64,000 nucleotides of DNA, taken from Entophlyctis helioformis. Lineage: Eukaryota; Chytridiomycota; Chytridiomycetes; Chytridiales; Chytriomycetaceae. This document shows positions 18,890-55,930 of this stretch, piece after piece. A program made the position numbers and the translations under genes. Under the pieces are notes generated by a model that saw only the letters and a program-made list of their open reading frames with translations, was not told the DNA's origin and searched no databases. Within the stretch, counting starts at the first letter, position 1; every line of letters begins with the position of its first letter. Location of the stretch: positions 51,703 through 115,702 of the forward strand of contig JAHLKH010000078.1 in NCBI GenBank assembly GCA_025526915.1. The letters run 5' to 3'.

Positions 18890-19011
18890 GCTCGAGTGTG
18901 ACTGCGACTGTGACTGTGTCCGTGTGTGTCCTGCTGGTCAAGTCCGCCTTTACGTCCTCACGACGGATCGTTGCTCAAAACCCGCCAACCCGCCGTCCCG
19001 CCCGCCTGCGC
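18890..19011. promoter_or_regulatory. 122-bp shared divergent promoter (ING / RPRD-Rtt103)
   Basis: The two ATGs face away from each other across 122 bp that includes a short (TGTGAC)-like repeat and a CCCGCC-rich stretch. No TATA box is seen. Confidence 0.55.
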
Positions 19012-19694
19012 ATGTCGTTCACCGAAGAAGCGCTCGTCGCCAAGCTGCGCGGCCTGACCAACACGCAGCAGAGCATCCAAGTCACCTCGCAGTGTGCGTC
19101 GGCGTCTGCCCTGCTGCCTGCCTGCCTTGCTCTATTGCCTTGCTCTGCCCCCCGTGCGTCGCCGAGACTGCGACTGACCCGCCTCGTGCAATGGCGTGTC
19201 GGCCCGTTCACACGCTCGTCTGCGTCGCCCGCCTCCGCTCATCCGGCCGGCACGTCTCATCGTGCGGTTGGCCGCCGGCAACCTGCCTCTCGTGCCCGCC
19301 CGCCCGCCCGTCGGTCGTTCGGTCTGCATCTGCCTCTCGTGCCCGCCGCCCTCCAACTGCCGCCCTGCCCATGCCCTGCCCATGCCCTGCAGGGTTCATC
19401 TTCCACCGAAAGAACGCAAAGTCCTGCGTCGCTACCTGGTCGCAGGAGATCGCCAACGGTGCGTTGCTCGGCACCGGATCTGTCCACTCCCATCTGCCCA
19501 GCTGGGCGACTGTCGGGCCTGCTAGCTGCTGTCGGCCGTCGGCTGCCTGCCGCAAAGCCCAATGCGCGATCCATCTCGCACGTCCATCATCGGCTCCCGG
19601 CTGCCGGCTGGCGCTGGACGGTGTGCCGATTGATCGGATGAGCAGATCACCGCAGCAACGCATCGGCCGACTCGAAGCTGACTCACATGTTCCA

Positions 19695-19733
<39 letters not shown>

Positions 19734-21382
19734 CAAACAGCCCAGCCGTCCAAACGTCTCAACTACATGCATCTGGCCAACGACATCATCCAGAACTCGC
19801 GGAGACGCGGCGAAGAGTATATTGAAGAGTTCAAGACTGTGCTGCCAAACATCTTTGCTACAACCCTCAAGTAAGGGTGCCATGCAATGCCGACTTGCTC
19901 GAGTGTTGGATGACGCTCCTAGTTCCGTTCGTCTGCAGCCATCGTATGCTTACAATCGTACCACTTGTCCCAGGAATGTTGACTCGGATACCAAGCATAA
20001 AGTGCAACGACTGATAGACATTTGGCGAAAGCGATCGCTCTACTCAGACGATTTCCTGGACCGGCTGTTGCAAAGAGCAGGCCTTGAAGTGCCTCGCCCA
20101 TCGCGACCCAAGCCACCACAGTCCGCGTCAGCACCGGTATCTGGCTCTGGATCGGCATCGCTTGACGCTGGATCTGCACAGTCTGCCTCGAGAGGATCCC
20201 TGCCGCCAAGCACACATGCTGCTGCTCTCAATGCACCGCATGCACAACTACCCAACGAGGTGACGATCGTATCGATCTGTTTCGACCCACACAAACCGGC
20301 AGCACGTCTCTAACACGGCCTCACTCTCCCGTTGCAGTTGCAAAGCATGGCCAGTCGGTTTGAAGATTTGAAGGGTCTGGAGATGATGAAGCTGCCTCTG
20401 GTCACCAAAGTCAACGGTCTCCGCGAATCAATCTTTGAGCCAGACAGCAACCCATCAGGTCAGTTTGCGGTTCCATCCTTGTTCAAGACCCACAGTGCCG
20501 GTCGATGGAACGGTTGCCCAACTCACACGGCCGCACAGATGAAAAGAGGCAGGATGTTGAACAGGCCAGATCGCTGCTGGACGAGCATCTCAAGATATTG
20601 ACATCGGAAATGTCCTTCCGTGCTCTGTTTGCCTCTGAACTGCGGTCCCTTGCAGGACAGCAGGATTCGATCATTGGCGATCTGCAACGACAACAGCAGG
20701 TCCGTGCACCGCGGATAACATCTGCATATTCCATCATACTCTCTATTTCAGACTGACGTTCAAACGTTCTGACGGACTAACTATCTGGCTGGCTGGCTGG
20801 CTGGCTGATATTGCCTGCCATCTGCAGATGGTGACCGAGAGACTCAAGCTGCTCGGCACTCTGCAAAGCGCGTTTCCGCCGTCAACCTCTTCGTCGTCGT
20901 CGTCGTCAAGCAATCATGGATCTGGATTCAACACCATGGCTGGCTTGGCTGGAAACAGTCCCAACAGCTCGAGTGCTCTCGGTGGGGTATTTGGCACCAA
21001 TGATGGGGCTCTGAGTATGGACGACAGCTTCAGCACCATCAGCTCGTCAAGTGCTTCTGGTGACGCGAACGGCAATCACCATTTTGGTAGCAACAGCAAC
21101 AGCCATAGCAGCAGCAGCAGCAGCGGTGTCATCCCCAGCGGCATAAGCCCGCCAGGTGGGCCATCTTTGGCCGCGTCGTTGGACATGGGCCCAGGCAGCC
21201 TGTTGGCCAGATTATCAGCGCCGACTTCCCTAACTCCGACAGTCGCGTCGCTGTCGGGGATGAACTCGATTAATCCGGCCATGACCATGGGCGCGTTTGG
21301 AGGGATCCACCAGGCAACCCTGGATCGGATGGCCCTCTCATGGCCGGACGAAGCCACATTATCCTTTGACTTTTCAGGCTGA
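19012..21382 (+). CDS. CID-domain protein of the RPRD1/Rtt103 family
   Basis: These proteins bind the phosphorylated C-terminal domain of RNA polymerase II and act in transcription termination and CTD dephosphorylation. The first exon reads MSFTEEALVAKLRGLTNTQQ, nearly the same as animal RPRD1. Splicing from 19093 restores the Trp of SQWFIFHRKNAKS. Later exons give SKRLNYMHLANDIIQNSRRR and KHKVQRLIDIWRKRSLYSDD, completing the CID. The next exons read a coiled-coil region (VEQARSLLDEHLKILTSEM, IGDLQRQQQ), as in RPRD1 and Rtt103. A Ser/Asn/Gly-rich tail ends FDFSG at 21382. Seven introns join in phase. Intron 2 ends in a run of 36 C followed by GCAAACAG. The gene shares a 122-bp promoter with the ING gene; both products act on chromatin-linked transcription. 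Confidence 0.9.
19697..19732 (+). repeat. C36 homopolymer at an intron 3' end
   Basis: An uninterrupted run of 36 C lies eight bases before the exon at 19741, in the polypyrimidine-tract position. Run length is likely to be imprecise in any assembly. Confidence 0.85.
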
Positions 21383-25588: not shown

Positions 25589-28020
25589 ATGGCCGACGGG
25601 AAGCTCGAGAAAATGACCCAAGATTGGTCTGCGGCGGCGGATACGCTGCTGCCCGAGACGGAGAAGCTGGCCAAGGTACGCAGCCAGTATCGCAGCCGGC
25701 CTGTCTTGCAAGCGCACTGGTCTGCCATGCCATGCCATGCCATGCCGCATTGCCCCGTGCGGTGTGGTGCGGTGCGGTGTGCAGACAGCACCGGCATGGG
25801 GTCTGGTCCTGTGCTTGTTGGCGGCTGCAATCTGGTTGAACACGCTCGCTGGCTCGTTGCTCGGCTTGACGGGCCAGGGTCTCGCTGGTGGTGCGGTTGC
25901 AGCTTCCGGCAGCTGGCCGTGCCGCAGGGGTGGCCTGCAAGCACGGCAAGATGTCCCTCGACGACAGCGATACTAACTGCTGCCATCCGCTGCTTGCTTA
26001 CCTCGCTCACACGCCGCTGGACATGGCGTGGGGCGGCCGTGCCGCTTGGCTGGCTGGGCCAGGCGGGCAAGCTGAGCGAGGCCATTGAGCAGCTGCTTGT
26101 TCTCGAGAAGCAGACGCGCACGGTATGTTTGCTGCCATGCTGCCACGCTGCCATGCCCACGTCGGCCACTTGCTGACGACCTGCTGAATGGCCGGATCTG
26201 TCATGGCTTTGTATGGGCACGTCCATATCCGGCTACTCATGACCCTTGCCCAACGCATCATGGCTCTTCCTCACCAACGCGACGACAGTCTGCCGACTTG
26301 GCATCCAACTCGCGTGTGCTGCTGCAGATCATCGGCCTTGCGTACAGAGCCAAAGACTGGAAGCTCCTGAACGAGAACATCGTGGTGCTGTCCAAGAAGC
26401 GTGCGTTGCTGAAGCAGGCAATCACCAAGATGGTCCAGGAGGCCATCAAGTACGTTGACGAGATCAAGGACATGAAGATCAAGCTGGAGCTCATTGACAC
26501 GCTCCGCACAGTCACTGACGGCAAGGTTTGTCGTGCATCCTGTTGAGCAGCGTGCCTTGGTTCCGAAACTGACCCACGATCTCATGCGGCGGCTGATTCT
26601 CTGGGATGCACTCTCGTTGACAGATCTTTGTCGAGGTCGAGCGCGCTCGTCTAACCCGCACGCTTGCCAAGATCAAGGAGGCAGAAAACAAGATTGGAGA
26701 GGCTGCTGATCTGATGCAGGAGCTCCAGGTGAGCGTGGGCTGAAAAGCCATTGCCGACCCTGCTTGCGAGGATGGCCGATGCTGAGCATCCCCATGCGTG
26801 CAATCTTGCCAGGTTGAGACGTACGGATCCATGGACAAGCGCGAGAAGACCGATTTTATCCTCGAGCAGATGCGTCTGTGTCTTGGCAAGAAGGACTACC
26901 AGCGTGCGCAGGTTATTGGCCGCAAGATCAGCATCAAGTTCTTCGAGGACCCTGCAAACCACGACCTCAAGATTCGCTTCTACGAGCTCATGATCCAGAA
27001 TGCTGTCCACGGCGACCGCCATCTTGAAACGTGCAAGCACTACCGCCAGCTCTACGACACGCCGTCTATCCGTTCCGACGAGAAGACTGGACTCGAGGTG
27101 CGGCAGTGGCATACATTATTGCACTGCACGGCTGCCTGCGATGCGCCGACTCACACCATCGAATTGTGCGATGCCTTGGTTTGGCCCGCAGACTCTCAAG
27201 CACGTGGTGCTCTTCATTGCATTGTCTCCGTTCGACAACGAGCAGTCGGATCTTATCCACCGCATCAACGAAGATGCCAACCTCTCCAAGATTGTGCTGT
27301 TCAAGTCAGTGCATTTGCCACTCTCGCACTGGCTGGTTTGGAACTGACGGAATGCAACTCACAGGGAGTTTCTCAAGTGCTTTATCACGTCCGAGCTTAT
27401 GCGCTGGCCCAAGGTCGAGGAGATCTACGGCCCTGCACTCAAGGCCTCGAGCGTGTTTGACCCTGCTACGGAGGGCGGACAGAAGCGGTACAAGACGCTC
27501 CACAAGCGTGTCATTGAGCACGTATGTTTGCTTCTCTTGCTGACGTGGCATGCATCGTGCCACGACATGGCAATGTGCGGCTCTGCGACTGACAACGCTG
27601 CACATGATCTGGGCCATGACACACAGAACATTCGTGTGATTGCCAAGTACTACGACCGCATCTCGATCAAGCGCCTTACGCAGCTGCTTGACCTGTCGGC
27701 TGCTGTAAGTGGCGTGCGCTGCGTGTTGCTGTTCGCCTGATGCCGCGCACTCACGCCTGCCGTCTTGCTTGGCTATGAACATCTGGCGCGCACGTCTGCA
27801 GGAGACGGAAGAGTTCCTGTCCAACCTTGTTGTCAACAAGACCATCTATGCGCGGATCAACCGCCCAGCGGGCATCATCAACTTTGTGTCGCCCAAGGAC
27901 CCCAACACGATCCTCAACGACTGGTCGCAGAACATCAACTCGCTGCTGGAGCTCATTGTCAAGACCAACCACCTCATCACCAAGGAGGAGATGATCCACT
28001 CCATCAAGAAGGCGCTCTGA
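25589..28020 (+). CDS. RPN5: 26S proteasome lid subunit RPN5/PSMD12
   Basis: RPN5 is a PCI-domain subunit of the 19S lid. The start [13 protein letters not shown] matches the human PSMD12 N-terminus; an ATG 60 bp upstream is in frame but less family-like. About ten exons join in phase. They read [160 protein letters not shown] and [20 protein letters not shown]. The last exon ends [12 protein letters not shown], as in the family. Collinearity with PSMD12 is nearly complete, so no domain seems missing. The first intron contains CATGC repeats. The gene lies 331 bp before the giant DUF885 gene on the same strand. Confidence 0.95.
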
Positions 28021-28351: not shown

Positions 28352-31300
28352 ATGTTCAAGAACTTTATCGACTTCTTGAAGAAGAAGAAGAAGCCCGCTG
28401 CCGCCCCAGGCGCCGGCACCACCACCACCACCACCACTGCCCGCACGAGCACCACCATCGTGAGAGGCGCCGCCGCCGTTTCAGCGTCGACAGTGATTGT
28501 GCAGGAGCATCAGCCTGCTGCCCCTCCGTCGGCCGGCTCGGACTCGGTCGTTGCCGCTATTGCCGCCACCGTGGCTGCCGTCGCCGCACCTGTCGTCAAG
28601 GCCGTTGTCGACGCCACCTCGGCCCCGCCCTCGCCCGTCGAGCCTGCTGCTGCGCCTGCCCCTGCCCAGCGTGCACTCTATGCCATCCTCGACGACATCA
28701 CTGACGTCGTGTTCAAGGGCATGCCCGGTGAGTTTCGGGCCCCCGCTGACTGCTGGTGCACACACGAGTTGTTCCGCATGCCGCTTGTCGCTTGTCGCCT
28801 GCTGCTTGTCGCTTGGTCATGTGGCAGTCCACCTTATCTGACTCGTCGTCATCATCGTCGGCACGACTGCACACCTGCACACCTGCACACCTGCCAACGC
28901 CTCCTGTCGCCTTGTGATTCCGACGGTCACATGGACGACCGACAACGGATCGTGCGTCGACGGCGCTGCAGAGATGGGTGCGATGGTAAACTTCTCCAAG
29001 TACCAAGACGACATCTTCCAAGTGTCCAAGGCCTTCTTCGACGAGAGCAACAGCGCATTCAATGTGCTGCTTGACGAGATGAACCGTCTCGACACGTCCG
29101 CCTACACTGTGCAAGAGCTGAACGACCTCGAGGCTGTCAAGTACGAGATCCGTGACACCCTCCTCAGACGCACCGCCTACGGCTACGAGATCCCTTGCAC
29201 CCACATGTTTGGTGCCTTTGCCAGCTTCGACATGCTCATGGCTGGGTAAGCTTGCTTGGCATGCACTCGTTATCGCTGTTGGGTGATCTGACAATCGTCG
29301 CTGCCAACAGGTACCAGCCGCTCAAGTCGCTCAAGGACGCCGAGAACCTCGTGTCGCGTCTGAGCAAGACTCCCGAGCGCTTCAACGACTGCATTGTTGC
29401 GTTCCGTGCTGGCATTGAGGCTGGCATCACTCTCCCTGCCGAGTCGATCAAGCTCATGATCGACAAGTGCAAGAAGATGGCTGTCGAGGATCCCACCACC
29501 AGCATGTTCTACGGTGCCTTCAAGGCCAAGATCGTCGCTCTTGGACTTCCCGAGGACTACCTTGTGCCTGTCATCCGCGACAGTCTCGTTCCCGCGTACA
29601 AGGCCGTCGCCGAGTTCCTTGAGGCCGAGTACCTTCCCCATGCCCGTCAGCACGCCGGTATCTACGGTCTGGCGGATTACGAACGCGTGTACAACGACCT
29701 GATCTACCTGCACACGACCGTGCGTTACACCGCCGACGAGCTCCACGAGCTCGGCAAGAAGGAGGTTGCACGCATCCGCAAGCGCATGGAGGACATCAAG
29801 GACGAGATCAAGTTCGAGGGCACTCTTGCCGAGTTCTTGTAGCCCTCAAGGACCGCGAGCAGTTCCCTCAGCTCTTCCTCGCTTCCGAGGAGAGTACATC
29901 CCGCACTACAAGGCTCTGATTGCCCGCATCAACGAGAAGATGCCCGAGTACTTCAACAAGTTCCCCAAGTTCGAGTGCAACATCATGGCTGTCCCCAAGC
30001 CCGCTGAAGCCTCTGCTCCTCTGGCCATGTATCGCCCCGGCACTCCCGACAGAGCCGGCGCGTTCCTGATCAACCTCGGCCTGTCCAACAAGTCCCCCAT
30101 GCATTCGGCCATGGCTCTCACCCTCCACGAGGCCATCCCTGGCCACCACCACCAGGCATCGCTTGCCCACGAGATGCCCACTGGCCACGTGCTTAGAAAG
30201 CTTTCGATGGCGACCTCTTACGTTGAGGGCTGGGGTCTCTACTCTGAGTTCCTTGGCGAGGGTACGTATTGATCCTGATGCTCATCTTGCGCGTCTTGTA
30301 TGCACAACTGACACCATGCAATCCACAGAGATGAAGATGTACGACACGCCATTCGACCTGTTCGGCCGTCTTGACATGGAGATGTTCCGTGCACTTCGCC
30401 TTGTTGTCGACACCGGTCTTCACACCAAGGGATGGACTGTCGACCAGTCTGTTCAGTACATGAGTGAGAACCTCGCCATGTCCCATGAAGAGATTCTCAA
30501 TGACGTCAAGCGCTACTCGATCATGCCTGGCCAGGCTCTTGCCTACAAGGTCGGTGAGATCAAGATCCGCGAAGTGCGCAAGTACGCCGAGGAGCAGCTC
30601 GGCACCAAGTTCAACATCCGTGACTTCCACGACGTCGTCCTTGACTTTGGCTCTGTCCGTCTCGAGACTCTCGAGGACAACGTCAAGAACTGGGTCAAGG
30701 CTGTCCAGAGCAAACCCGAGAACAAGTCCTACTTTGCTCTCAAGGCTGTCATGGACGAGCTTGTTGACGAGGCCATCCGCGAGGAGCCCCGTAAGTCTCC
30801 CTTGCCCTGCAACATGTCCATCGCGTGTGAACGACTTGAGCGCCATTCTTGCAGATGCTAATCACCCCAATCCTCGCTCTGGCCCAGTTGGCGCCGTCAT
30901 GTTTGACATCTACAAATACGAGGACGAGCTGTTCAACGTGTCCAAGGCCGAGGTCGACCGCCGCCTCCAGGTTCTTGGCAGACTCCTTGTTGATCTCCAG
31001 AACATTGAGCAGGACGACCTTCTGGCTACAGAGAAGAGTGACTACGAGGTCGCCAAGGCTGCCATCAAGACGTCGATGCTGTTCTCGGGCTGCTACAGCT
31101 ACGAGATCCCTGCCACGCACATGTTCGGCACCTTTGCCAGCATGACCATGTCGATCCTTCCTTACCAGCCCCTCGAGTCTGTCAAGGATGCCGAGAACTA
31201 CGTCTCCCGCCTCTCCAAGACCCCCGAGCGCTTCAACGACTGCATTGTCGCGTTCCGTGCTGGTATTGAGGCTGGCATCACTCTCCCTGCTGAGTCGATC

Positions 31301-34300
31301 AAGCTCATGATCGACCTTTGCAACAAACTCGCCGTCGAGGATCCCACCGAGAGCATGTTCTTCACCTCCTTCAAGGCCAAGATCGCAGCAGTTGGTCTTC
31401 CCGAGGACTACCTTGCCCCTGTCATCCGCGACAGCCTCGTTCCCGCGTACAAGGCCGTCGCCGAGTTCCTTGAGACCGAGTACCTTCCCCATGCCCGTCA
31501 GAACTCGGGCATTTACGGTCTTCCTGACTCTGAGCGTGTGTACAACGACCTGATCTACTTCCACACGACTGTGCGTTACACTGCCGACGAGCTTCACGAG
31601 CTCGGCAAGCAGGAGGTTGCACGCATCCGCAAGCGCATGGAGGCGATCAAGGATGAGATCAAGTTCGAGGGCACTCTTGCCGAGTTCTTTGTGGCTCTCA
31701 AGGACCGCGAGCAGTTCCCTCAGCTCTTCCTTGCCGCTGGCGATGACTACGTGCCGTTCTACAAGGCTCTGATCACCCGCATTGACAAGGTCATGCCCGA
31801 GTACTTCAACAAGCTTGCCAAGTTCGAGTGCGACGTCAAGGCTGTTCCCAAGCCCGCTGAAGCCTCTGCCCCTGTCGCCTACTACCAGCCTGGCACCGCG
31901 GACAAGCCTGGTGCATTCTACACCAACGTTGCGCTGTCCAAGGACTCGCCCAACCACACCGCCATGGCCCTCACTCTTCACGAGGCCATCCCTGGTCACC
32001 ACCACCAGATTTCAATCTCGTTCGATGCTGCCACCGGTCACCTTCTGAAGAAGATGTCCTTTGTCACCTCTTACGTTGAGGGCTGGGGTCTCTACGCTGA
32101 GTTCCTCGGCGAGGGTACGTGATGATACTGATGCTCATCTTGCGCGTTTTGAGATTGAGAGCTGACACCATGCAATCAACAGAGATGAAGATGTACGACA
32201 CGCCATTCGACCTGTTCGGCCGTCTCGAGCTCGAGATGTTCCGTGCACTTCGCCTTGTTGTCGACACCGGTCTTCACGCCAAGGGATGGACCATCGACGA
32301 CTGCATCAAGCTCATGAGTGACAACCTTTCCATGTCGCACGACGAGCTCATGAGCGAGGTCAAGCGCTACTCGATCATGCCCGGCCAGGCTCTTGCCTAC
32401 AAGGTCGGTGAGATCAAGATCCGCGAGGTGCGCAAGTACGCCGAGGAGCAGCTCGGCACCAAGTTCAACATCCGCGACTTCCATGACGTTGTCCTTGACT
32501 TTGGCTCTGTCCGTCTCGAGACTCTCGAGGACAATGTCAAGAACTGGGTCAAGGCTGTCCAGAACAAGCCCGAGAACAAGTCCTACTTTGAGCTCAAGAG
32601 CCTCATGGACGAGTTTGTTGACCTGGCTTTCCGCTCGTCGCCTGGTATGTCGTGTTTGCATCCTGCCTTTGTTTGATACCATCTGCTGACACAAGCCGCA
32701 GTCGAGGGTGCAATCTTTGACTACCCCAAGTACCACGACGAGATCTTCAACGTGTCCAAGGAGACCGTCGACCGTGACATGAAGGCCATCAAGAAGATGC
32801 TGGAGGACGTTGACTCGATTGACGTGTCGACTCTCACTGTGGAGGAGCGCAACGATCTTGAGCTTCTGCGCGGATCGTTCAAGGACATCAGCCTTTCGTT
32901 CGCTTGCTACGGCTACGAGATCCCTTGCACCCACATGTTTGGCGCCTTTGCTGGATTTGAGATGAGCCTGCTTCCGTGAGTATCCGCGCGTTCCGTCGAC
33001 CATGCAATCTGTGATCACTGACTGACAATCGTCGCTGCCAACAGGTACCAGCCGCTCAAGTCGCTCAAGGACGCCGAGAACCTCGTGTCGCGTCTGAGCA
33101 AGACCCCCGAGCGCTTCAACGACTGCATTGTTGCGTTCCGTGCTGGTATTGAGGCTGGCATCACTCTCCCTGCCGAGTCGATCACGCTCATGATCGAGAA
33201 GTGCAAGAAGATGGCCGTTGAGGATCCCACCGAGAGCATGTTCTACGGTGCCTTCAAGGCCAAGATTGTCGCTCTTGGACTTCCCGAGGACTACCTTGTG
33301 CCTGTCATCCGCGACAGCCTCGTTCCCGCGTACAAGGCCGTCGCCGAGTTCCTTGAGACCGAGTATGCTGCACACGCACGCACCACTCCTGGCATTTTCA
33401 GCCTCGCCAACTCCAAGGAGGTGTACAACGACCTGATCTACCTGCACACGTCTGTCCGCTACACCGCCGACGAGCTCCACGAGATTGGCAAGCAGGAGGT
33501 TGCACGCATCCGCAAGCGCATGGAGGCGATCAAGGATGAGAACTTTGACGGCACGTTTGCCGAGTTCCTCGTCGCCCTCAAGGACCGCGAGCAGTTCCCT
33601 CAGCTGTTCCTCGCTTCCGAGGAGGAGTACATCCCGCACTACAAGGCTCTGATTGCCCGCATCAACGAGAAGATGCCCGAGTACTTCAACAAGTTCCCCA
33701 AGTTCCAGTGCGACGTGCAGGCTGTCCCCAAGCCTGCCGAGGGATCCGCACCCCTCGCCTACTACCAGCCTGGTACCGCCGAGAAGCCTGGTGCATTCTA
33801 CGCCAACGTTGGTCTGTCCAAGAAGTCCCCCATGCACTCGGCCATGGCCCTCACTCTCCACGAAGCCATCCCTGGCCACCACCACCAGATTTCGATTGCA
33901 TATGAGCTACCATCGAGCCACCTTTTCAAGAAGATGTCCTTTGTGACCGCTTATGCAGAGGGCTGGGGTCTCTATGCCGAGTTCCTCGGCGAGGGTACGT
34001 GATGATCCTGATGCTCATCTTGCGCGTTTTGAGATTGATGACTGACACCACGCAATCCACAGAGATGAAGATGTACGACACGCCATTCGACCTGTTCGGC
34101 CGTCTCGAGCTCGAGATGTTCCGTGCACTTCGCCTTGTTGTCGACACCGGTCTTCACGCCAAGGGATGGACCATCGACGACTGCATCAAGCTCATGAGTG
34201 ACAACCTTTCCATGTCGCACGACGAGCTCATGAGCGAGGTCAAGCGCTACTCGATCATGCCTGGCCAGGCTCTTGCCTACAAGGTCGGTGAGATCAAGAT

Positions 34301-37300
34301 CCGCGAAGTGCGCAAGTACGCCGAGGAGCAGCTCGGCACCAAGTTCAACATCCGCGACTTCCATGACGTTGTCCTTGACTTTGGCTCTGTCCGTCTCGAG
34401 ACTCTCGAGGACAATGTCAAGAACTGGGTCAAGGCTGTCCAGAGCAAACCCAAGAACAAGTCCTACTTTGAGCTCAAGAGCCTCATGGACGAGTTTGTTG
34501 ACATGGCTTTCCGCTCGTCGCCTGGTATGTCGTGTTTGCATCCTGCCTTTGTTTGATACAATCTGCTGACACAAACCATAGTCATGGGTGCGATGTTCGA
34601 CTACCCCAAGTACCACGACGAGATCTTCAACGTGTCCAAGGAGACCGTCGACCGTGACATGAAGGCCATCAAGAGGATGCTGGAGGACATTGACTCGATT
34701 GACGTGTCGTCTCTCACTGTGGAGGAGCGCAACGATCTTGAGCTCCTGCGCGGATCGTTCAAGGACATCAGCCTTTCGTTCACTTGCTATGGCTACGAGA
34801 TCCCTTGCACCCACATGTTTGGAGCCTTTGCTGGATTCGAGATGGACCTGCTTCCGTAAGTATCCCCGCATTCCATCGACCATGCAATCTGTGATTGCTG
34901 ACTGACAATCGTCGCTGCCAACAGGTACCAGCCGCTCAAGTCGCTCAAGGACGCCGAGAACCTCGTGTCGCGTCTGAGCAAGACCCCCGAGCGCTTCAAC
35001 GACTGCATTGTTGCGTTCCGTGCTGGTATTGAGGCTGGCATCACTCTCCCTGCCGAGTCGATCACGCTCATGATCGAGAAGTGCAAGAAGATGGCCGTTG
35101 AGGATCCCACCGAGAGCATGTTCTACGGTGCCTTCAAGGCCAAGATCGTCGCTCTTGGACTTCCCGAGGACTACCTTGTGCCTGTCATCCGCGACAGTCT
35201 CGTTCCCGCGTACAAGGCCGTCGCCGAGTTCCTTGAGACCGAGTATGCTGCACACGCACGCACCACTCCCGGCATTTTCAGCCTCGCCAACTCCAAGGAT
35301 GTGTACAACGACCTGATCTACCTGCACACGTCTGTGCGTTACACCGCCGACGAGGTCCACGAAATGGGCAAGCAGGAGGTTGCACGCATCCGCAAGCGCA
35401 TGGAGGACATCAAGGACGAGATCAAGTTCGAGGGCACTCTTGCCGAGTTCTTTGTGGCTCTCAAGGACCGCGAGCAGTTCCCGCAGCTCTTCCTCGCTTC
35501 CGAGGACGACTACATCCCTCACTACAAGGCCTTGGTCGCACGTATTGAGAAGAGGATGCCCGAGTACTTCAACAAGTTCCCCAAGTTCAAGTGCGATGTT
35601 AACCCTGTCCCCAAGCCTGCCGAGGGATCGTCGCCATCTGCATACTACCAGCCAGGCTCGGCTGGCGAGAACGGCTCGTTCTACGCCAACCTTGCCATTG
35701 CCAAGAGCTCGCCCAACCACACCGCCATGGCCCTCACTCTTCACGAGGCCATCCCTGGCCACCACCACGAGGTGTCTCTTTCTCTCGAGAGACCCGTCAC
35801 TCACAAGTTCAAGAACTTTGTTGGTGTCACTGCCTACTCTGAGGGCTGGGGTCTCTACGCCGAGTTCCTTGGCGAAGGTACGTGATGATTTATTGGCGCG
35901 ACTGCCTCGCATGTAGTGCACACAACTGACGCGTTTGGCGTGGAACAGAGATGGGCATGTACGACACGCCATTTGACCTGCTTGGCCGTCTCGAGATGGA
36001 GATGTTCCGTGCACTCCGCCTTGTTGTCGACACCGGTCTTCACGCCAAGGGATGGACTGTCGACCAGTCTGTCAAGTACATGACCGACAATGTGTCCATG
36101 TCTCACAAGAAGATCCTCAATGACGTCAAGCGCTACTCGATCATGCCTGGCCAGGCTCTTGCCTACAAGGTCGGTGAGATCAAGATCCGCGAAGTGCGCA
36201 AGTACGCCGAGGAGCAGCTCGGCACCAAGTTCAACATCCGCGACTTCCATGACGTTGTCCTTGACTTTGGCTCTGTCCGTCTCGAGACTCTCGAGGACAA
36301 TGTCAAGAACTGGGTCAAGGCTGTCCAGAGCAAACCCAAGAACAAGTCCTACTTTGAGCTCAAGAGCCTCATGGACGAGTTTGTTGACATGGCTTTCCGC
36401 TCGTCGCCTGGTATGTCGTGTTTGCATCCTGCCTTTGTTTGATACAATCTGCTGACACAAACCATAGTCATGGGTGCGATGTTCGACTACCCCAAGTACC
36501 ACGACGAGATCTTCAACGTGTCCAAGGAGACCGTCGACCGTGACATGAAGGCCATCAAGAGGATGCTGGAGGACATTGACTCGATTGACGTGTCGTCTCT
36601 CACTGTGGAGGAGCGCAACGATCTTGAGCTCCTGCGCGGATCGTTCAAGGACATCAGCCTTTCGTTCACTTGCTATGGCTACGAGATCCCTTGCACCCAC
36701 ATGTTTGGAGCCTTTGCTGGATTCGAGATGGACCTGCTTCCGTAAGTATCCCCGCATTCCATCGACCATGCAGTCTGTGATCACTGACTGACAATTGTCG
36801 CTGCCAACAGGTACCAGCCGCTCAAGTCGCTCAAGGACGCCGAGAACCTCGTGTCGCGTCTGAGCAAGACCCCCGAGCGCTTCAACGACTGCATTGTTGC
36901 GTTCCGTGCTGGTATTGAGGCTGGCATCACTCTCCCTGCCGAGTCGATCACGCTCATGATCGAGAAGTGCAAGAAGATGGCCGTTGAGGATCCCACCGAG
37001 AGCATGTTCTACGGTGCCTTCAAGGCCAAGATCGTCGCTCTTGGACTTCCCGAGGACTACCTTGTGCCTGTCATCCGCGACAGTCTCGTTCCCGCGTACA
37101 AGGCCGTCGCCGAGTTCCTTGAGACCGAGTATGCTGCACACGCACGCACCACTCCCGGCATTTTCAGCCTCGCCAACTCCAAGGATGTGTACAACGACCT
37201 GATCTACCTGCACACGTCTGTGCGTTACACCGCCGACGAGGTCCACGAAATGGGCAAGCAGGAGGTTGCACGCATCCGCAAGCGCATGGAGGACATCAAG

Positions 37301-40300
37301 GACGAGATCAAGTTCGAGGGCACTCTTGCCGAGTTCTTTGAAGCTCTCAAGGACCGCGAGCAGTTCCCGCAGCTCTTCCTCGCTTCCGAGGACGACTACA
37401 TCCCTCACTACAAGGCCTTGGTCGCACGTATTGAGAAGAGGATGCCCGAGTACTTCAACAAGTTCCCCAAGTTCAAGTGCGATGTTAACCCTGTCCCCAA
37501 GCCTGCCGAGGGATCGTCGCCATCTGCATACTACCAGCCAGGCTCGGCTGGCGAGAACGGCTCGTTCTACGCCAACCTTGCCATTGCCAAGAGCTCGCCC
37601 AACCACACCGCCATGGCCCTCACTCTTCACGAGGCCATCCCTGGCCACCACCACGAGGTGTCTCTTTCTCTCGAGAGACCCGTCACTCACAAGTTCAAGA
37701 ACTTTGTTGGTGTCACTGCCTACTCTGAGGGCTGGGGTCTCTACGCCGAGTTCCTTGGCGAAGGTACGTGATGATTTATTGGCGCGACTGCCTCGCATGT
37801 AGTGCACACAACTGACGCGTTTGGCGTGGAACAGAGATGGGCATGTACGACACGCCATTTGACCTGCTTGGCCGTCTCGAGATGGAGATGTTCCGTGCAC
37901 TCCGCCTTGTTGTCGACACCGGTCTTCACGCCAAGGGATGGACTGTCGACCAGTCTGTCAAGTACATGACCGACAATGTGTCCATGTCTCACAAGAAGAT
38001 CCTCAATGACGTCAAGCGCTACTCGATCATGCCTGGCCAGGCTCTTGCCTACAAGGTCGGCGAGATCAAGATCCGTGAAGTGCGCAAGTACGCCGAGGAG
38101 CAGCTCGGCACCAAGTTCAACATCCGCGACTTCCATGACGTTGTCCTTGACTTTGGCTCTGTCCGTCTCGAGACTCTCGAGGACAATGTCAAGAACTGGG
38201 TCAAGGCTGTCCAGAGCAAACCCAAGAACAAGTCCTACTTTGAGCTCAAGAGCCTCATGGACGAGTTTGTTGACCTGGCTTTCCGCTCGTCGCCTGGTAT
38301 GTTGTGTTTGCATCCTGCCTTTGTTTGATACAATCTGCTGACACAAGCCACAGTCGAGGGTGCAATCTTTGACTACCCCAAGTACCACGACGAGATCTTC
38401 AACGTGTCCAAGGAGACCGTCGACCGCGACATGAAGGCCATCAAGAGGATGCTGGAGGACGTTGACTCCATCGATGTGTCGACTCTCACTGTGGAGGAGC
38501 GCAACGATCTTGAGCTTCTGCGCGGATCGTTCAAGGACATCAGCCTTTCGTTCACTTGCTACGGCTACGAGATCCCTTGCACCCACATGTTTGGAGCCTT
38601 TGCCAGCTTCGACATGAGCCTGCTTCCGTGAGTATCCCCGCATTCCATCGACCATGCAGTCTGTGATCACTGACTGACAATTGTCGCTGCCAACAGGTAC
38701 CAGCCGCTCAAGTCGCTCAAGGACGCCGAGAACCTCGTGTCGCGTCTGAGCAAGACCCCCGAGCGCTTCAACGACTGCATTGTTGCGTTCCGTGCTGGCA
38801 TTGAGGCTGGCATCACTCTCCCTGCCGAGTCGATCACGCTCATGATCGAGAAGTGCAAGAAGATGGCCGTTGAGGATCCCACCGAGAGCATGTTCTACGG
38901 TGCCTTCAAGGCCAAGATTGTCGCTCTTGGACTTCCCGAGGACTACCTTGTGCCTGTCATCCGCGACAGCCTCGTTCCCGCGTACAAGGCCGTCGCCGAG
39001 TTCCTTGAGACCGAGTATGCTGCACACGCACGCACCACTCCTGGCATTTTCAGCCTCGCCAACTCCAAGGAGGTGTACAACGACCTGATCTACCTGCACA
39101 CGTCTGTCCGCTACACCGCCGACGAGCTCCACGAGATTGGCAAGCAGGAGGTTGCACGCATCCGCAAGCGCATGGAGGCGATCAAGGATGAGAACTTTGA
39201 CGGCACGTTTGCCGAGTTCCTCGTCGCCCTCAAGGACCGCGAGCAGTTCCCTCAGCTGTTCCTCGCTTCCGAGGAGGAGTACATCCCGCACTACAAGGCT
39301 CTGATTGCCCGCATCAACGAGAAGATGCCCGAGTACTTCAACAAGTTCCCCAAGTTCCAGTGCGACGTGCAGGCTGTCCCCAAGCCTGCCGAGGGATCCG
39401 CACCCCTCGCCTACTACCAGCCTGGTACCGCCGAGAAGCCTGGTGCATTCTACGCCAACGTTGGTCTGTCCAAGAAGTCCCCCATGCACTCGGCCATGGC
39501 CCTCACTCTCCACGAAGCCATCCCTGGCCACCACCACCAGATTTCGATTGCATATGAGCTACCATCGAGCCACCTTTTCAAGAAGATGTCCTTTGTGACC
39601 GCTTATGCAGAGGGCTGGGGTCTCTATGCCGAGTTCCTCGGCGAGGGTACGTGATGACCTGATGCTCATCTTGCGCGTTTTGAGATTGATGACTGACACC
39701 ACGCAATCCACAGAGATGAAGATGTACGACACGCCATTCGACCTGTTCGGCCGTCTCGAGCTCGAGATGTTCCGTGCACTTCGCCTTGTTGTCGACACCG
39801 GTCTTCACGCCAAGGGATGGACCATCGACGACTGCATCAAGCTCATGAGTGACAACCTTTCCATGTCGCACGACGAGCTCATGAGCGAGGTCAAGCGCTA
39901 CTCGATCATGCCTGGCCAGGCTCTTGCCTACAAGGTCGGTGAGATCAAGATCCGCGAAGTGCGCAAGTACGCCGAGGAGCAGCTCGGCACCAAGTTCAAC
40001 ATCCGCGACTTCCATGACGTTGTCCTTGACTTTGGCTCTGTCCGTCTCGAGACTCTCGAGGACAATGTCAAGAACTGGGTCAAGGCTGTCCAGAGCAAAC
40101 CCAAGAACAAGTCCTACTTTGAGCTCAAGAGCCTCATGGACGAGTTTGTTGACATGGCTTTCCGCTCGTCGCCTGGTATGTCGTGTTTGCATCCTGCCTT
40201 TGTTTGATACAATCTGCTGACACAAACCATAGTCATGGGTGCGATGTTCGACTACCCCAAGTACCACGACGAGATCTTCAACGTGTCCAAGGAGACCGTC

Positions 40301-43300
40301 GACCGTGACATGAAGGCCATCAAGAGGATGCTGGAGGACATTGACTCGATTGACGTGTCGTCTCTCACTGTGGAGGAGCGCAACGATCTTGAGCTCCTGC
40401 GCGGATCGTTCAAGGACATCAGCCTTTCGTTCACTTGCTATGGCTACGAGATCCCTTGCACCCACATGTTTGGAGCCTTTGCTGGATTCGAGATGGACCT
40501 GCTTCCGTAAGTATCCCCGCATTCCATCGACCATGCAGTCTGTGATCCTGACTGACAATCGTCGCTGCCAACAGGTACCAGCCGCTCAAGTCGCTCAAGG
40601 ACGCCGAGAACCTCGTGTCGCGTCTGAGCAAGACCCCCGAGCGCTTCAACGACTGCATTGTTGCGTTCCGTGCTGGTATTGAGGCTGGCATCACTCTCCC
40701 TGCCGAGTCGATCACGCTCATGATCGAGAAGTGCAAGAAGATGGCCGTTGAGGATCCCACCAGAGCATGTTCTACGGTGCCTTCAAGGCCAAGATCGTCG
40801 CTCTTGGACTTCCCGAGGACTACCTTGTGCCTGTCATCCGCGACAGTCTCGTTCCCGCGTACAAGGCCGTCGCCGAGTTCCTTGAGACCGAGTATGCTGC
40901 ACACGCACGCACCACTCCCGGCATTTTCAGCCTCGCCAACTCCAAGGATGTGTACAACGACCTGATCTACCTGCACACGTCTGTGCGTTACACCGCCGAC
41001 GAGGTCCACGAAATGGGCAAGCAGGAGGTTGCACGCATCCGCAAGCGCATGGAGGACATCAAGGACGAGATCAAGTTCGAGGGCACTCTTGCCGAGTTCT
41101 TGTGGCTCTCAAGGACCGCGAGCAGTTCCCGCAGCTCTTCCTCGCTTCCGAGGACGACTACATCCCTCACTACAAGGCCTTGGTCGCACGTATTGAGAAG
41201 AGGATGCCCGAGTACTTCAACAAGTTCCCCAAGTTCAAGTGCGATGTTAACCCTGTCCCCAAGCCTGCCGAGGGATCGTCGCCATCTGCATACTACCAGC
41301 CAGGCTCGGCTGGCGAGAACGGCTCGTTCTACGCCAACCTTGCCATTGCCAAGAGCTCGCCCAACCACACCGCCATGGCCCTCACTCTTCACGAGGCCAT
41401 CCCTGGCCACCACCACGAGGTGTCTCTTTCTCTCGAGAGACCCGTCACTCACAAGTTCAAGAACTTTGTTGGTGTCACTGCCTACTCTGAGGGCTGGGGT
41501 CTCTACGCCGAGTTCCTTGGCGAAGGTACGTGATGATTTATTGGCGCGACTGCCTCGCATGTAGTGCACACAACTGACGCGTTTGGCGTGGAACAGAGAT
41601 GGGCATGTACGACACGCCATTTGACCTGCTTGGCCGTCTCGAGATGGAGATGTTCCGTGCACTCCGCCTTGTTGTCGACACCGGTCTTCACGCCAAGGGA
41701 TGGACTGTCGACCAGTCTGTCAAGTACATGACCGACAATGTGTCCATGTCTCACAAGAAGATCCTCAATGACGTCAAGCGCTACTCGATCATGCCTGGCC
41801 AGGCTCTTGCCTACAAGGTCGGCGAGATCAAGATCCGTGAAGTGCGCAAGTACGCCGAGGAGCAGCTCGGCACCAAGTTCAACATCCGCGACTTCCATGA
41901 CGTTGTCCTTGACTTTGGCTCTGTCCGTCTCGAGACTCTCGAGGACAATGTCAAGAACTGGGTCAAGGCTGTCCAGAGCAAACCCAAGAACAAGTCCTAC
42001 TTTGAGCTCAAGAGCCTCATGGACGAGTTTGTTGACATGGCTTTCCGCTCGTCGCCTGGTATGTCGTGTTTGCATCCTGCCTTTGTTTGATACAATCTGC
42101 TGACACAAGCCACAGTCGAGGGTGCAATCTTTGACTACCCCAAGTACCACGACGAGATCTTCAACGTGTCCAAGGAGACCGTCGACCGCGACATGAAGGC
42201 CATCAAGAGGATGCTGGAGGACGTTGACTCCATCGATGTGTCGACTCTCACTGTGGAGGAGCGCAACGATCTTGAGCTTCTGCGCGGATCGTTCAAGGAC
42301 ATCAGCCTTTCGTTCACTTGCTACGGCTACGAGATCCCTTGCACCCACATGTTTGGAGCCTTTGCCAGCTTCGACATGAGCCTGCTTCCGTGAGTATCCC
42401 CGCATTCCATCGACCATGCAGTCTGTGATCACTGACTGACAATTGTCGCTGCCAACAGGTACCAGCCGCTCAAGTCGCTCAAGGACGCCGAGAACCTCGT
42501 GTCGCGTCTGAGCAAGACCCCCGAGCGCTTCAACGACTGCATTGTTGCGTTCCGTGCTGGCATTGAGGCTGGCATCACTCTCCCTGCCGAGTCGATCACG
42601 CTCATGATCGAGAAGTGCAAGAAGATGGCCGTTGAGGATCCCACCGAGAGCATGTTCTACGGTGCCTTCAAGGCCAAGATTGTCGCTCTTGGACTTCCCG
42701 AGGACTACCTTGTGCCTGTCATCCGCGACAGCCTCGTTCCCGCGTACAAGGCCGTCGCCGAGTTCCTTGAGACCGAGTATGCTGCACACGCACGCACCAC
42801 TCCTGGCATTTTCAGCCTCGCCAACTCCAAGGAGGTGTACAACGACCTGATCTACCTGCACACGTCTGTCCGCTACACCGCCGACGAGCTCCACGAGATT
42901 GGCAAGCAGGAGGTTGCACGCATCCGCAAGCGCATGGAGGCGATCAAGGATGAGAACTTTGACGGCACGTTTGCCGAGTTCCTCGTCGCCCTCAAGGACC
43001 GCGAGCAGTTCCCTCAGCTGTTCCTCGCTTCCGAGGAGGAGTACATCCCGCACTACAAGGCTCTGATTGCCCGCATCAACGAGAAGATGCCCGAGTACTT
43101 CAACAAGTTCCCCAAGTTCCAGTGCGACGTGCAGGCTGTCCCCAAGCCTGCCGAGGGATCCGCACCTGTCGCCTACTACCAGCCTGGTACTGCCGAGAAG
43201 CCTGGTGCATTCTACGCCAACGTTGGTCTGTCCAAGGACTCGCCCAACCACACCGCCATGGCCCTCACTCTTCACGAAGCCATCCCTGGCCACCACCACG

Positions 43301-45837
43301 AGGTGTCTCTTTCTCTCGAGAGACCCGTCACTCACAAGTTCAAGCACCTTGTTGGTGTCACTGCCTACTCTGAGGGCTGGGGTCTCTACGCTGAGTTCCT
43401 CGGCGAGGGTACGTGATGACACTGATGCTCATCTTGCGCGTTTTGAGATTGAGAGCTGACACCATGCAATCAACAGAGATGAAGATGTACGACACGCCAT
43501 TCGACCTGTTCGGCCGTCTCGAGCTCGAGATGTTCCGTGCACTTCGTCTTGTTGTCGACACCGGTCTTCACACCAAGGGATGGACTGTCGACCAGTCCGT
43601 TCAGTACATGAGTGAGAACCTTTCCATGTCGCACGACGAGCTCATGAGCGAGGTCAAGCGCTACTCGATCATGCCTGGCCAGGCTCTTGCCTACAAGGTC
43701 GGCGAGATCAAGATCCGTGAGGTGCGCAAGTACGCCGAGGAGCAGCTCGGCACCAAGTTCAACATCCGCGACTTCCATGACGTCGTCCTTAACTTTGGCT
43801 CTGTCCGTCTCGAGACTCTCGAGGACAATGTCAAGAACTGGGTCAAGGCTGTCCAGAGCAAACCCGAGAACAAGTCCTACTTTGCTCTGAGAACTGCCAT
43901 GGACACTTTTGTTGACATGACTTTCCTTTCTGGACCCAGTATGTGCCACGCAGAGCTTGTTGTCGATTGCTCCTTTGCTGACTATCAATGCCTACCTGTG
44001 ATATCTTTAGCAATGGTGACAATCTTTGACTACCCCAAGTACCACGACGAGATCTTCAACGTCTCCAAGGAGGCGAGGGATTCGCGTCTGGCCACCGTCA
44101 ACGGCCTTATCGCCGACCTGGAGAACATCGACCGCACCATTCTCTCGGCTGATGAGAGCAACGATGTTGACCTGCTGATGGGCACCCTCAAGGACATCAT
44201 CATTTCGTCCAAGTGCTACGGCTACGAGATCCCTTGCACCCACATGTTTGGAGCCTTTGCCAGCTTCGACATGAGCCTGCTTCCGTGAGTATCCCCGCAT
44301 TCCATCGACCATGCAGTCTGTGATCACTGACTGACAATTGTCGCTGCCAACAGGTACCAGCCGCTCAAGTCGCTCAAGGACGCCGAGAACCTCGTGTCGC
44401 GTCTGAGCAAGACCCCCGAGCGCTTCAACGACTGCATTGTTGCGTTCCGTGCTGGCATTGAGGCTGGCATCACTCTCCCTGCCGAGTCGATCACGCTCAT
44501 GATCGAGAAGTGCAAGAAGATGGCCGTTGAGGATCCCACCGAGAGCATGTTCTACGGTGCCTTCAAGGCCAAGATTGTCGCTCTTGGACTTCCCGAGGAC
44601 TACCTTGTCCCTGTCATTCGCGACAGCCTCGTTCCCGCGTACAAGGCCGTCGCCGAGTTCCTTGAGACCGAGTATGCTGCACACGCACGCACCACTCCTG
44701 GCATTTTCAGCCTCGCCAACTCCAAGGAGGTGTACAACGACCTGATCTACCTGCACACGTCTGTGCGTTACACCGCCGACGAGCTCCACGAGCTCGGCAA
44801 GCAGGAGGTTGCACGCATCCGCAAGCGCATGGAGGACATCAAGGATGAGAAATTTGAGGCACGTTTGCCGAGTTCTTCGGCCCTCAAGGACCGCGAGCAG
44901 TTCCCGCAGCTCTTCCTCCCTTCCGAGGACGACATTATCCCGCACTACAAGGCTCTGATTGAGGTATATCTGTATGATGCTGCAACACGACGCGTCCACA
45001 AGATTGACACCTTGCACTCGAACAGCGTATTGACAAGGTCATGCCCGAGTACTTCAACAAGTTCCCCAAGTTCCAGTGCAATGTGCAGGCTGTCCCCAAG
45101 CCCGCTGAAGCTTCGGCTGCGATGGCTTACTACCAGGCCGGCACTCCCGACAAGGCGGGCTCGTTCTTTGCCAACGTTGGTCTGTCCAAGAAGTCCCCCA
45201 TGCATTCGGCCATGGCCCTCACTCTCCACGAAGCCATCCCTGGCCACCATCACCAGGTTTCGATTGCGCTTGAGAGACCCACGAGCCACCTCTTCTACAA
45301 GTTTGTCCGTAACACGGCTTACGTTGAGGGATGGGGTCTCTACTCCGAGTTCCTTGGCGAAGGTACGTGATGATCCTGATGCTCATCTTGCGCGTTTTGA
45401 GATTGATGACTGACACCATGCACTCCACAGAGATGAAGATGTACGACACGCCACTCGATTTGTTCGGCCGCCTCGACCTGGAGATGTTCCGTGCACTTCG
45501 CCTTGTTGTCGACACCGGTCTTCACACCAAGGGATGGACTGTCGACCAGTCTGTTCAGTACATGAGTGACAACCTCGCCATGTCCCATGAAGAGATTCTC
45601 AGCGAGGTCAAGCGCTACTCGATCATGCCTGGCCAGGCTCTTGCCTACAAGGTCGGTGAGATCAAGATCCGCGAAGTGCGCAAGTACGCCGAGGAGCAGC
45701 TCGGCACCAAGTTCAACATCCGTGACTTCCACGATGTCGTCCTTGACCACGGCTCTGTCCGTCTCGAGACTCTCGAGGACAATGTCAAGAACTGGGTTGC
45801 ATCCGTCCAGGCTTCTGCGGTCGCTCTCGCCAACTAA
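28352..45837 (+). CDS. Giant gene with nine tandem DUF885 metallopeptidase domains
   Basis: DUF885 proteins are predicted zinc metallopeptidases with an HExxPGHH motif. Twenty-eight exons are inferred. Exon 1 (28352-28727) encodes MFKNFIDFLKKKKK, then Thr/Ala/Pro-rich sequence with no signal peptide, so a cytosolic product is likely. Then nine units of about 562 residues follow, each normally on three exons of about 274, 950-953 and 462 nt. Each carries LSKTPERFNDCIVAFRAGIE, HEAIPGHHH, EGWGLY(A/S)EFLGE, RALRLVVDTGLH, IMPGQALAYKVGEIKIREVR and FNIRDFHDVVL. Junctions between units use the same phase as those within units, there is no stop or promoter-sized gap between units, and the last exon alone ends in a stop (TAA 45835). 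About 15.5 kb of exon predicts about 5,180 residues. Introns of 57-71 nt all begin with an in-frame stop if retained. Exons 3 and 20 (951 nt) break frame; see unit entries. The array could be mis-sized by assembly. Confidence 0.8.
28972..30790 (+). repeat. DUF885 unit 1 (divergent; frameshifted middle exon)
   Basis: Exons 28972-29245, 29311-30261 and 30329-30790. The most divergent N-terminal part (NFSKYQDDIFQVSKAFFDES). HEAIPGHHHQ is intact. Compared with other units, one T is missing at about 29838 (TTT to TT) and one G at about 29890, a net -2 in the 951-nt exon, so the frame is broken as written. Confidence 0.85.
30855..32644 (+). repeat. DUF885 unit 2 (first intron absent)
   Basis: Exons 30855-32114 and 32183-32644. 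The intron that separates the first two exons in the other units is cleanly missing: SILPYQPLESVKDAEN reads straight through. Frame intact; HEAIPGHHHQ present. Sequence is clearly divergent from units 3-8. Confidence 0.88.
32702..34524 (+). repeat. DUF885 unit 3 (type beta)
   Basis: Exons 32702-32975, 33045-33994 and 34063-34524; frame intact. Marker residues VEGAIFDY, DENFDGTFAEF and IAYELPSSHLFKKM define type beta. The 305-residue middle block is identical to that of unit 6. Confidence 0.9.
34582..36410 (+). repeat. DUF885 unit 4 (type alpha)
   Basis: Exons 34582-34855, 34925-35877 and 35949-36410; frame intact. Marker residues MGAMFDY, DEIKFEGTLAEF and LSLERPVTHKFKNF define type alpha. 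Nearly identical to units 5 and 7. Confidence 0.9.
36468..38296 (+). repeat. DUF885 unit 5 (type alpha)
   Basis: Exons 36468-36741, 36811-37763 and 37835-38296; frame intact. Differs from unit 4 by very few residues, for example AEFFEALKD in place of AEFFVALKD. Confidence 0.9.
38354..40175 (+). repeat. DUF885 unit 6 (type beta)
   Basis: Exons 38354-38627, 38697-39646 and 39714-40175; frame intact. The middle exon encodes the same residues as unit 3; the first exon differs slightly (GAFASFDMSLLP). Confidence 0.9.
40233..42058 (+). repeat. DUF885 unit 7 (type alpha, frameshifted)
   Basis: Exons 40233-40506, 40575-41525 and 41597-42058. Like units 4 and 5 except for two 1-nt losses in the middle exon: one G at about 40760 (CACCGAGAGC to CACCAGAGC) and one T at about 41098 (TTCTTTGTG to TTCTTGTG), net -2. 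The intron before this exon is also one base shorter. Confidence 0.88.
42116..43938 (+). repeat. DUF885 unit 8 (beta-alpha recombinant)
   Basis: Exons 42116-42389, 42459-43408 and 43477-43938; frame intact. Type beta up to PKPAEGSAP, a short mixed stretch, then type alpha from DSPNHTAMALTLHE onward (LSLERPVTHKFKHL). It looks like a product of recombination or gene conversion between the two types. Confidence 0.88.
44011..45837 (+). repeat. DUF885 unit 9 (terminal; extra intron, compensated indels)
   Basis: Exons 44011-44284, 44354-44963, 45026-45362 and 45431-45837. An extra 62-nt intron splits the middle exon (ALIE / RIDKVMPEYF). Between about 44870 and 44900 a 1-nt and a 2-nt loss relative to unit 8 cancel, changing about ten residues but keeping frame. 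The gene ends WVASVQASAVALAN instead of running into a linker. Confidence 0.85.
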
Positions 45838-55003: not shown

Positions 55004-55930
55004 TTTGACAGTCACGCACAAGTACATCCTGCCATTCATGATTATTGTTCCTTCCAAGACAAATGACCCTCTCTTTGGGTGCGTGACATAAAGACAGCGA
55101 CCAAACCTTACAGTGCATCGATTTCGATATTGGCCTTGAAATGGGCAATAGGCTCAACACACCGGGCCGAACTTTCTCTCCAACTGACTTTTGCGTGTGT
55201 CAAACCCGACCCAATGTACTCGTCCGTGTCAGACGCTTCTGTTTTCCCATGTAAGTGGTGGGATGGCCAAGACGCCAGACAAGAAGCGAGATCAGTTGGC
55301 GTCTGGTCAAGGCTGTATCCAATGGCACGGCTGGATGTCTGTCGGCGGAAGTGTGCCAATGTGTTTCTTGCAGCCTGCATGCAGCGGTGAGACATCCAGC
55401 GAGCTGGGGCTACACGCCTCATCTCGCGCGGTGGGATGTGTCGCGCCGAGCGCGCATGTTCCACGGCGAATGAGTTTTGGAAGCGGCGTGGCAAGATGCT
55501 GATGGAGCTTCGTCGAGTCTCTTCCTATGCGGCCCGCACTGCCTCTGTGCCCTTGATCTGAACGCATCAGAACTGCAGACTCGATGCTGACTGGCCATGA
55601 TCAATCCTCAATCGCATCAATGCATGCATCTCTGATCAACGTCCATGGCTCGATGGTGTTGGTATTGGCTGCAGCTTCGCTTGATGATGCTCTCGCGCTC
55701 GCAGACATGCTTGCATCGGTCGCACCTGCGCCAAGGTGCGTATCAGCGCCGTCGTTGAAGAACCGCGATTGCCATGCCGGCGGCGTGTTGAGCGTCTCGT
55801 GCTACACCAAGTTGGCGCCACTGACTGAACAGTGCCTACATCGCCCCTCTCAAACCCCACCGTGACGCGCCTTCAATGTCGCGCATTCGTGTTTGCTCGG
55901 CATTCCCTCAACTGTAAACTCATTGCGGCA
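55004..55930. other. Intergenic/leader region of the bZIP gene with a possible upstream ORF
   Basis: About 930 bp between two plus-strand genes. A 93-codon ATG-initiated open frame runs 55584-55865 and ends 65 bp before the bZIP ATG, so it could act as an upstream ORF if the leader is that long. The bZIP frame itself is open back to 55832 but without an ATG. Nothing else is recognisable. Confidence 0.35.

Follow-up and report, generated by a model that had tools for sequence, protein, structure and literature searches.

The array described here lies in a 64,000-nucleotide stretch of the Entophlyctis helioformis genome (contig JAHLKH010000078.1, here C78), which we call the window, and consists of nine DUF885 units that follow one another on the + strand between positions 28,352 and 45,837. 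We consider it probable that these units form one gene, encoding one chain of ~5,180 residues with nine complete DUF885 domains, and that this chain is an uncleaved, multi-catalytic intracellular peptidase that has grown from a smaller fused gene. The region 28,352-45,837 would accordingly be transcribed and spliced as a single unit, and each domain of the product would carry HExxPGHH and the glutamate of EGW. An original prediction, made from the letters of the window, had already proposed one giant gene, and this proposal is well supported by exons that fuse neighbouring units, by an intact two-unit paralogue on contig C167 and by proteins of two to four units in other organisms, including bacteria, which have no spliceosomal introns.

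Extent of the array and inventory of the units

The PF05960 (DUF885) profile matched a 1,307-aa piece of the predicted protein (units 2 and 3 with their flanks) in 3 stretches at 1,048.5 bits, for a cut-off of 32.4. Searched against the whole genome (29.57 Mb in 482 contigs, the match counts being lower bounds), it gave at least 27 matches, of which 27/27 exceeded the curated cut-off (best E-value 8.7e-82) and all fell at two loci only, the array on C78 and the gene on C167. HEAIPGHHH and EGWGLY were recovered by motif scan, and GLH by alignment, in all nine window units, as originally predicted. HExxPGHH followed by the EGW glutamate, a criterion taken from the motif as visible in the DUF885 family alignment, occurs in 9/9 window units and in both units of the C167 gene. 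The distance from one unit start to the next is 1,851-1,954 nt, and pairwise DNA identity among units ranges from 78 to 99.7%, far beyond chance, with mosaic stretches. The units are as follows.

Unit 1: 28972..30854, +, starting after intron N and including the following intron C; reading frame of exon 29311-30261 broken in the assembly, net -2 nt
Unit 2: 30855..32701, +, intact; without intron A
Unit 3: 32702..34581, +, intact
Unit 4: 34582..36467, +, intact
Unit 5: 36468..38353, +, intact; 99.4% DNA identity to unit 4
Unit 6: 38354..40232, +, intact; 99.0% DNA identity to unit 3
Unit 7: 40233..42115, +, 99.7% identical in DNA to units 4 and 5; reading frame of exon 40575-41525 broken in the assembly, net -2 nt
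Unit 8: 42116..44010, +, intact; mosaic, with approximately the first two thirds closest to unit 6
Unit 9: 44011..45837, +, terminal, ending in TAA; brief out-of-frame stretch with the frame regained; extra intron D at 44964-45025

Besides missing intron A, unit 2 (30855-32701) has the extra residues ANHPNPRSGPV after its junction.

Gene model and introns

The gene model opens with the ATG at 28,352, closes with the TAA at 45,837 and comprises 28 exons and 27 GT-AG introns. Its coding total as assembled is 15,536 nt, or ~5,178 codons, which agrees with the ~5,180 residues originally predicted, except that the frame is interrupted in the assembly. Each unit has up to three introns, namely C at the unit start (N before unit 1), A (absent in unit 2) and B just past EGWGLY, and within the array an additional intron D is found in unit 9 only. 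The eight inter-unit introns are short and occupy one homologous position, as predicted, with lengths of 57 nt (six of them), 64 nt and 72 nt and not the 57-74 nt first given. They lie inside the N-terminal part of each domain and not between domains; this, together with the absence of intron A in unit 2 and the presence of intron D in unit 9, corrects the original prediction. As the first unit of the window gene and that of the C167 gene share an intron after the leader exon, the inter-unit introns correspond to each unit's own first intron. The exons and introns that bear on the junctions are listed below.

Exon 1: 28352..28727, +, ATG, short hydrophobic-basic leader, Ala/Pro/Thr-rich stretch and first helix of domain 1 (LYAILDDITDVV, by homology); its counterpart is exon 1 of the C167 gene
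Intron N: 28728..28971, +, 244 nt; position matching the later inter-unit introns
Junction exon 1/2: 30329..30790, +, 462 nt; a single open exon for the C-terminus of domain 1 and the first helix of domain 2, boundary by homology
Junction exons 2/3 to 8/9: 32183-32644, 34063-34524, 35949-36410, 37835-38296, 39714-40175, 41597-42058 and 43477-43938, +, each 462 nt
Intron C, junction 1/2: 30791..30854, +, 64 nt
Intron C, remaining junctions: 32645-32701, 34525-34581, 36411-36467, 38297-38353, 40176-40232, 42059-42115 and 43939-44010, +

The inter-unit spacers carry donor, branch-like and acceptor signals. CTGAC stands near the acceptor in array introns A (8/8), B (9/9) and C (7/8) and in all seven introns of the C167 gene, compared with 8 of 2,054 exonic 40-mers, although these counts overstate the number of separate observations, repeat copies not being independent; the single introns N and D of the array are without it. 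Intron C of the array is 53-57% identical to that of the C167 gene, for 46-50% in shuffled sequences. Read through, intron C of junctions 2-7 runs into a stop at the 11th codon, whereas at junction 8 it gives an in-frame insert of 24 residues, and its retention is a possible way to produce chains of differing length.

The leader at 28352-28400, MFKNFIDFLKKKKK, resembles those of other chytrid members (MFGKLLRRRR, MLSCLPFFRK and MFQSIKKFFARRK), being short and hydrophobic and then basic, and could be a membrane or organelle signal.

Domain boundaries and the junction between units

One argument for a single gene comes from the place where one domain ends and the next begins. Three solved single-domain structures align from positions 576-577 of a two-unit profile and from residues 14, 17 or 575 of a confident model of P0015, a two-unit relative with 61% identity, in which helix 576-595 corresponds to helix 16-34 of the first unit. 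The helix ahead of intron C, placed upstream of this intron by homology, thus belongs to the following domain, and a single open exon encodes both the last part of one domain and the beginning of its successor. This exon has 462 nt at 8/8 junctions of the array and in the C167 gene, in spite of the synonymous divergence between the two genes (dS, given below). The structure of two adjacent units, which the original prediction had suggested modelling, was modelled for P0015 in place of the window protein, and this model shows an ordered junction in which helix packs against helix and a single residue separates the two. In the window gene, the C-terminus of a unit is encoded in a single exon together with the leading helix of the unit that follows, and since the linkers between domains are short, the product most likely works uncleaved.

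Within the array, the linker codons have almost no third-position bias (98/86/99), and the bias is weak against C167; the codon test thus gives little support to a coding reading of the linker, which is suggested by its length, its open frame and the paralogue.

The two-unit paralogue and the history of the array

The C167 gene (C167:51154-55201; L009:5155-9202) is intact, with 8 exons, 1,156 codons including the stop, and two units. The dS between the window and C167 genes is 0.74-0.94 (8 pairs compared), and dN/dS is 0.22-0.38 in 19/19 pairs, among which units 1, 5, 6 and 7 do not figure; these values show purifying selection between the units. A tree of 51 units places the nine window units in a clade of their own, with the two C167 units as its sister, and groups them with Polyrhizophydium and Batrachochytrium (91/96, not starred). 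Taken with the closest matches, this placement would put the source organism, probably, near Rhizophydiales among the chytrids. The Polyrhizophydium units form their own clade, those of Boothiomyces, Terramyces and Globomyces are grouped largely by position (with only 93/79 for Globomyces unit 3), and those of Amycolatopsis, a mussel and an isopod fall outside, each with its own kind. From this grouping, fusion was apparently repeated and is in places old, several separate fusions of DUF885 units being suggested among chytrids, an actinobacterium, a mussel and an isopod, and the window array appears to have expanded recently and to have been homogenised; conversion within genes could likewise group units by gene. 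The array would then have arisen from a smaller fused gene, of which a two-unit relative persists on C167, by internal tandem duplication and gene conversion.

Intron D occupies a matching place in unit 9 and in C167 unit 2, and we considered it as a mark of an orthologous last unit in both genes; this was rejected, the tree pairing the C167 units together and the window units together. Conversion within each gene would reconcile the shared intron with the tree, an explanation that is unproven. The two A introns of the C167 gene are near-identical in their 3' part, as if conversion had run through its introns.

Relatives with two to four units

The closest relatives of the array are in chytrid fungi, with Polyrhizophydium stewartii first at 61% identity among the matches listed. 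The search for multi-DUF885 proteins proposed with the original prediction gave proteins of two to four units in chytrids (Polyrhizophydium, Globomyces, Boothiomyces, Terramyces, Gorgonomyces and others) and also in Amycolatopsis, a mussel and an isopod. Among 23 hand-picked homologues that were scanned, seven have one unit, eight have two, five have three and three have four (16/23 multi-unit), so that the earlier statement that DUF885 proteins are normally single-domain and that such a chain would be new was too strong. The deposited models of P0002 and P0023 have gaps inside a unit. Of the 120 matches listed out of 7,932, 17 exceed 1,070 aa, and all eight of those scanned have two units. 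No repeated protein longer than 2,287 aa was found in searches reaching ~4,226 aa (14 matches) and ~6,802 aa (4 matches), proteins of ~1,263-1,328 aa or above ~6,800 aa, and relatives sharing no short exact words with the query, lying outside these searches. NCBIfam gave no family for 2/2 relatives, and the accessible parts of the literature on DUF885, on PF05960 and on DUF885 with "tandem" (including PMC12572635, PMC3188802 and PMC8478523) hold no description of a multi-DUF885 protein.

As side observations on these models, P0012 joins DUF885 to several unrelated Pfam domains and is probably a merged gene model; P0017 starts with a C-terminal piece of a unit, and the beginning of a further unit seems to stand at the end of P0018, so their unit counts may be too low.

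Predicted function and the variable stretch

HExxH is the motif of classical zinc peptidases, and HExxPGHH is an expanded form of it. DUF885 is placed in the Peptidase_MA clan of HExxH zinc peptidases in PMC12572635. Nine apparently complete active-site motifs, as originally predicted, are well supported; which residues of the window units bind metal is assumed, and catalysis is likewise predicted from sequence. In the P0015 model, which stands in for the window protein, the unit fold resembles solved DUF885 members and, weakly, M32, M3 and ACE peptidases; the likeness to M32 carboxypeptidases is weak against the helical background, and that to MATCAP is a similarly weak lead. Each unit would thus be a mostly helical peptidase that trims or degrades short peptides, and chaining would raise the number of active sites per chain and could bring units with different pockets together.

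Across the window units, most segments that bear the motifs hardly vary. The stretch just after HEAIPGHH falls by eye into approximately five types (unit 1; unit 2; units 3 and 6; units 4, 5, 7 and 8; unit 9). Its variability stands out over ten pairs of window units, where 14 of 550 windows along the alignment are at least as variable, its own overlapping windows included; it is middling in two C167-window pairs (53/550 and 13/550) and nothing special between the two C167 units (120/550). As an elaboration that is in our view rather unlikely, the nine zinc peptidases would form a rigid rod with pockets of several types and would degrade peptides together as a multi-specific machine, its length being adjusted through internal duplication and conversion and possibly through intron C retention.

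Weighing of the alternatives

The reading frame as assembled counts against a functional nine-unit chain as we propose it. Relative to the intact copies, exons 29311-30261 (unit 1) and 40575-41525 (unit 7) are both shifted in phase by 2 nt, unit 9 leaves the frame over a short stretch before regaining it, and the chain taken literally as assembled would stop in unit 1. The continuous frame with one final stop that was originally described holds for a run of 3,068 stop-free codons, which begins at the end of unit 1, spans the five consecutive intact units 2-6 and reaches into unit 7, and for units 8-9 as far as the final TAA; the breaks in units 1, 7 and 9 had been overlooked. If these breaks were real or the copy number inflated, the array would be decaying or partly misassembled and the true product shorter, a reading favoured by the breakage of 3/9 units and by the DNA identity of units 4, 5 and 7 (99.4-99.7%) and of units 3 and 6 (99.0%). 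However, six units and the C167 gene are intact, the pairs compared are under the constraint given above, and the comparison of units 7 and 5 gives 5 substitutions and 3 gaps, for 12 and 0 between units 4 and 5 and 18 and 1 between units 3 and 6. Because an excess of gaps in near-identical copies fits unpolished repeats better than decay, we infer that the breaks are assembly errors, and a decaying or shorter array seems to us highly unlikely.

Two further explanations retain the nine units and differ in what is made from them. Nine separate tandem genes, with the inter-unit introns as very short intergenic gaps, would accommodate the stop met at the 11th codon in 6/8 junctions (2-7) and the ATG found just after the acceptor in units 1, 4, 5, 7 and 9, but 57-72 nt is in our judgement very small for a terminator and a promoter, the first helix of each following domain would stay on the previous gene, and the C167 gene and the relatives in other genera are fused. 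As the domain boundary lies within an exon and the spacers carry splice signals, we rejected this reading, which is barely credible. A giant precursor cut at its linkers into single-domain peptidases would recall the Euglena RBCS polyprotein, in which eight repeats are made in one translation product (PMC4938576) and decapeptide linkers are excised. The array shares with it equal-sized complete repeats; its linker (...VQSKPKNKSYF...) is rich in Lys and, by eye, exceeds that of Polyrhizophydium by a few residues, and KPxNKxYF recurs in 8/8 array linkers and in that of C167 (nine junctions, one genome). Against cleavage, the P0015 junction is ordered, the linker is by eye not conserved between genera, and common descent alone could explain the shared KPxNKxYF. 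The polyprotein offered as an alternative in the original prediction thus has nothing positive in its favour other than the likeness of the linkers within a single genome, and we consider it distinctly unlikely. Our preferred reading remains the single uncleaved chain.

Neighbouring genes

A scan of the neighbourhood gave a domain match in 3/10 stretches of the window. Just upstream of the array, 26786-27457 has a PSMD12/CSN4 N-terminal match, which we take to be the proteasome lid subunit Rpn5; the others are a CID-domain ORF (open reading frame) at 18828-19871 and a bZIP ORF of 1,074 codons at 55829-59050.

Comparison with known multi-unit proteins

The chain is a longer example of an arrangement that is already in databases with two to four units and has been little studied; if made, it would be the longest DUF885 run in these searches, more than twice the next. 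Repeated fusion in separate lineages would mean that chaining of this enzyme is repeatedly favoured and, DUF885 being widespread and its function unnamed, the array and its relatives form a testable system for why some enzymes become multi-catalytic chains.

Polyrhizophydium stewartii HK105_202758 (P0001, 2,287 aa, hypothetical protein; 61% identity, 99% query coverage) likewise has complete DUF885 units head to tail with short linkers, but four and not nine, and as its units stand apart from those of the window in the tree, its expansion looks separate. Boothiomyces P0003, Terramyces P0004 and Globomyces P0002 have three, three and four fused units, whose clustering by position indicates an older arrangement, whereas the window array appears recent and homogenised. 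Units are also fused in the bacterium Amycolatopsis (four in P0005, three each in P0008 and P0006), at 31-33% identity and, for P0005, the only one placed in the tree, in a separate clade. By contrast, the bacterial DUF885 structures 3o0y, 3iuk and 3u24 have one domain per chain. The Euglena RBCS polyprotein also makes many repeats in one product, but the window array gives no sign of linker excision. Outside the family, somatic ACE has two peptidase domains. Carboxypeptidase D has three peptidase domains, two of them active and with differing preferences (PMC5683605), and polyserases carry several catalytic domains in one chain (PMC1435904). These proteins resemble the window chain in having multiple catalytic domains per chain and differ from it in having two or three domains, of other families.
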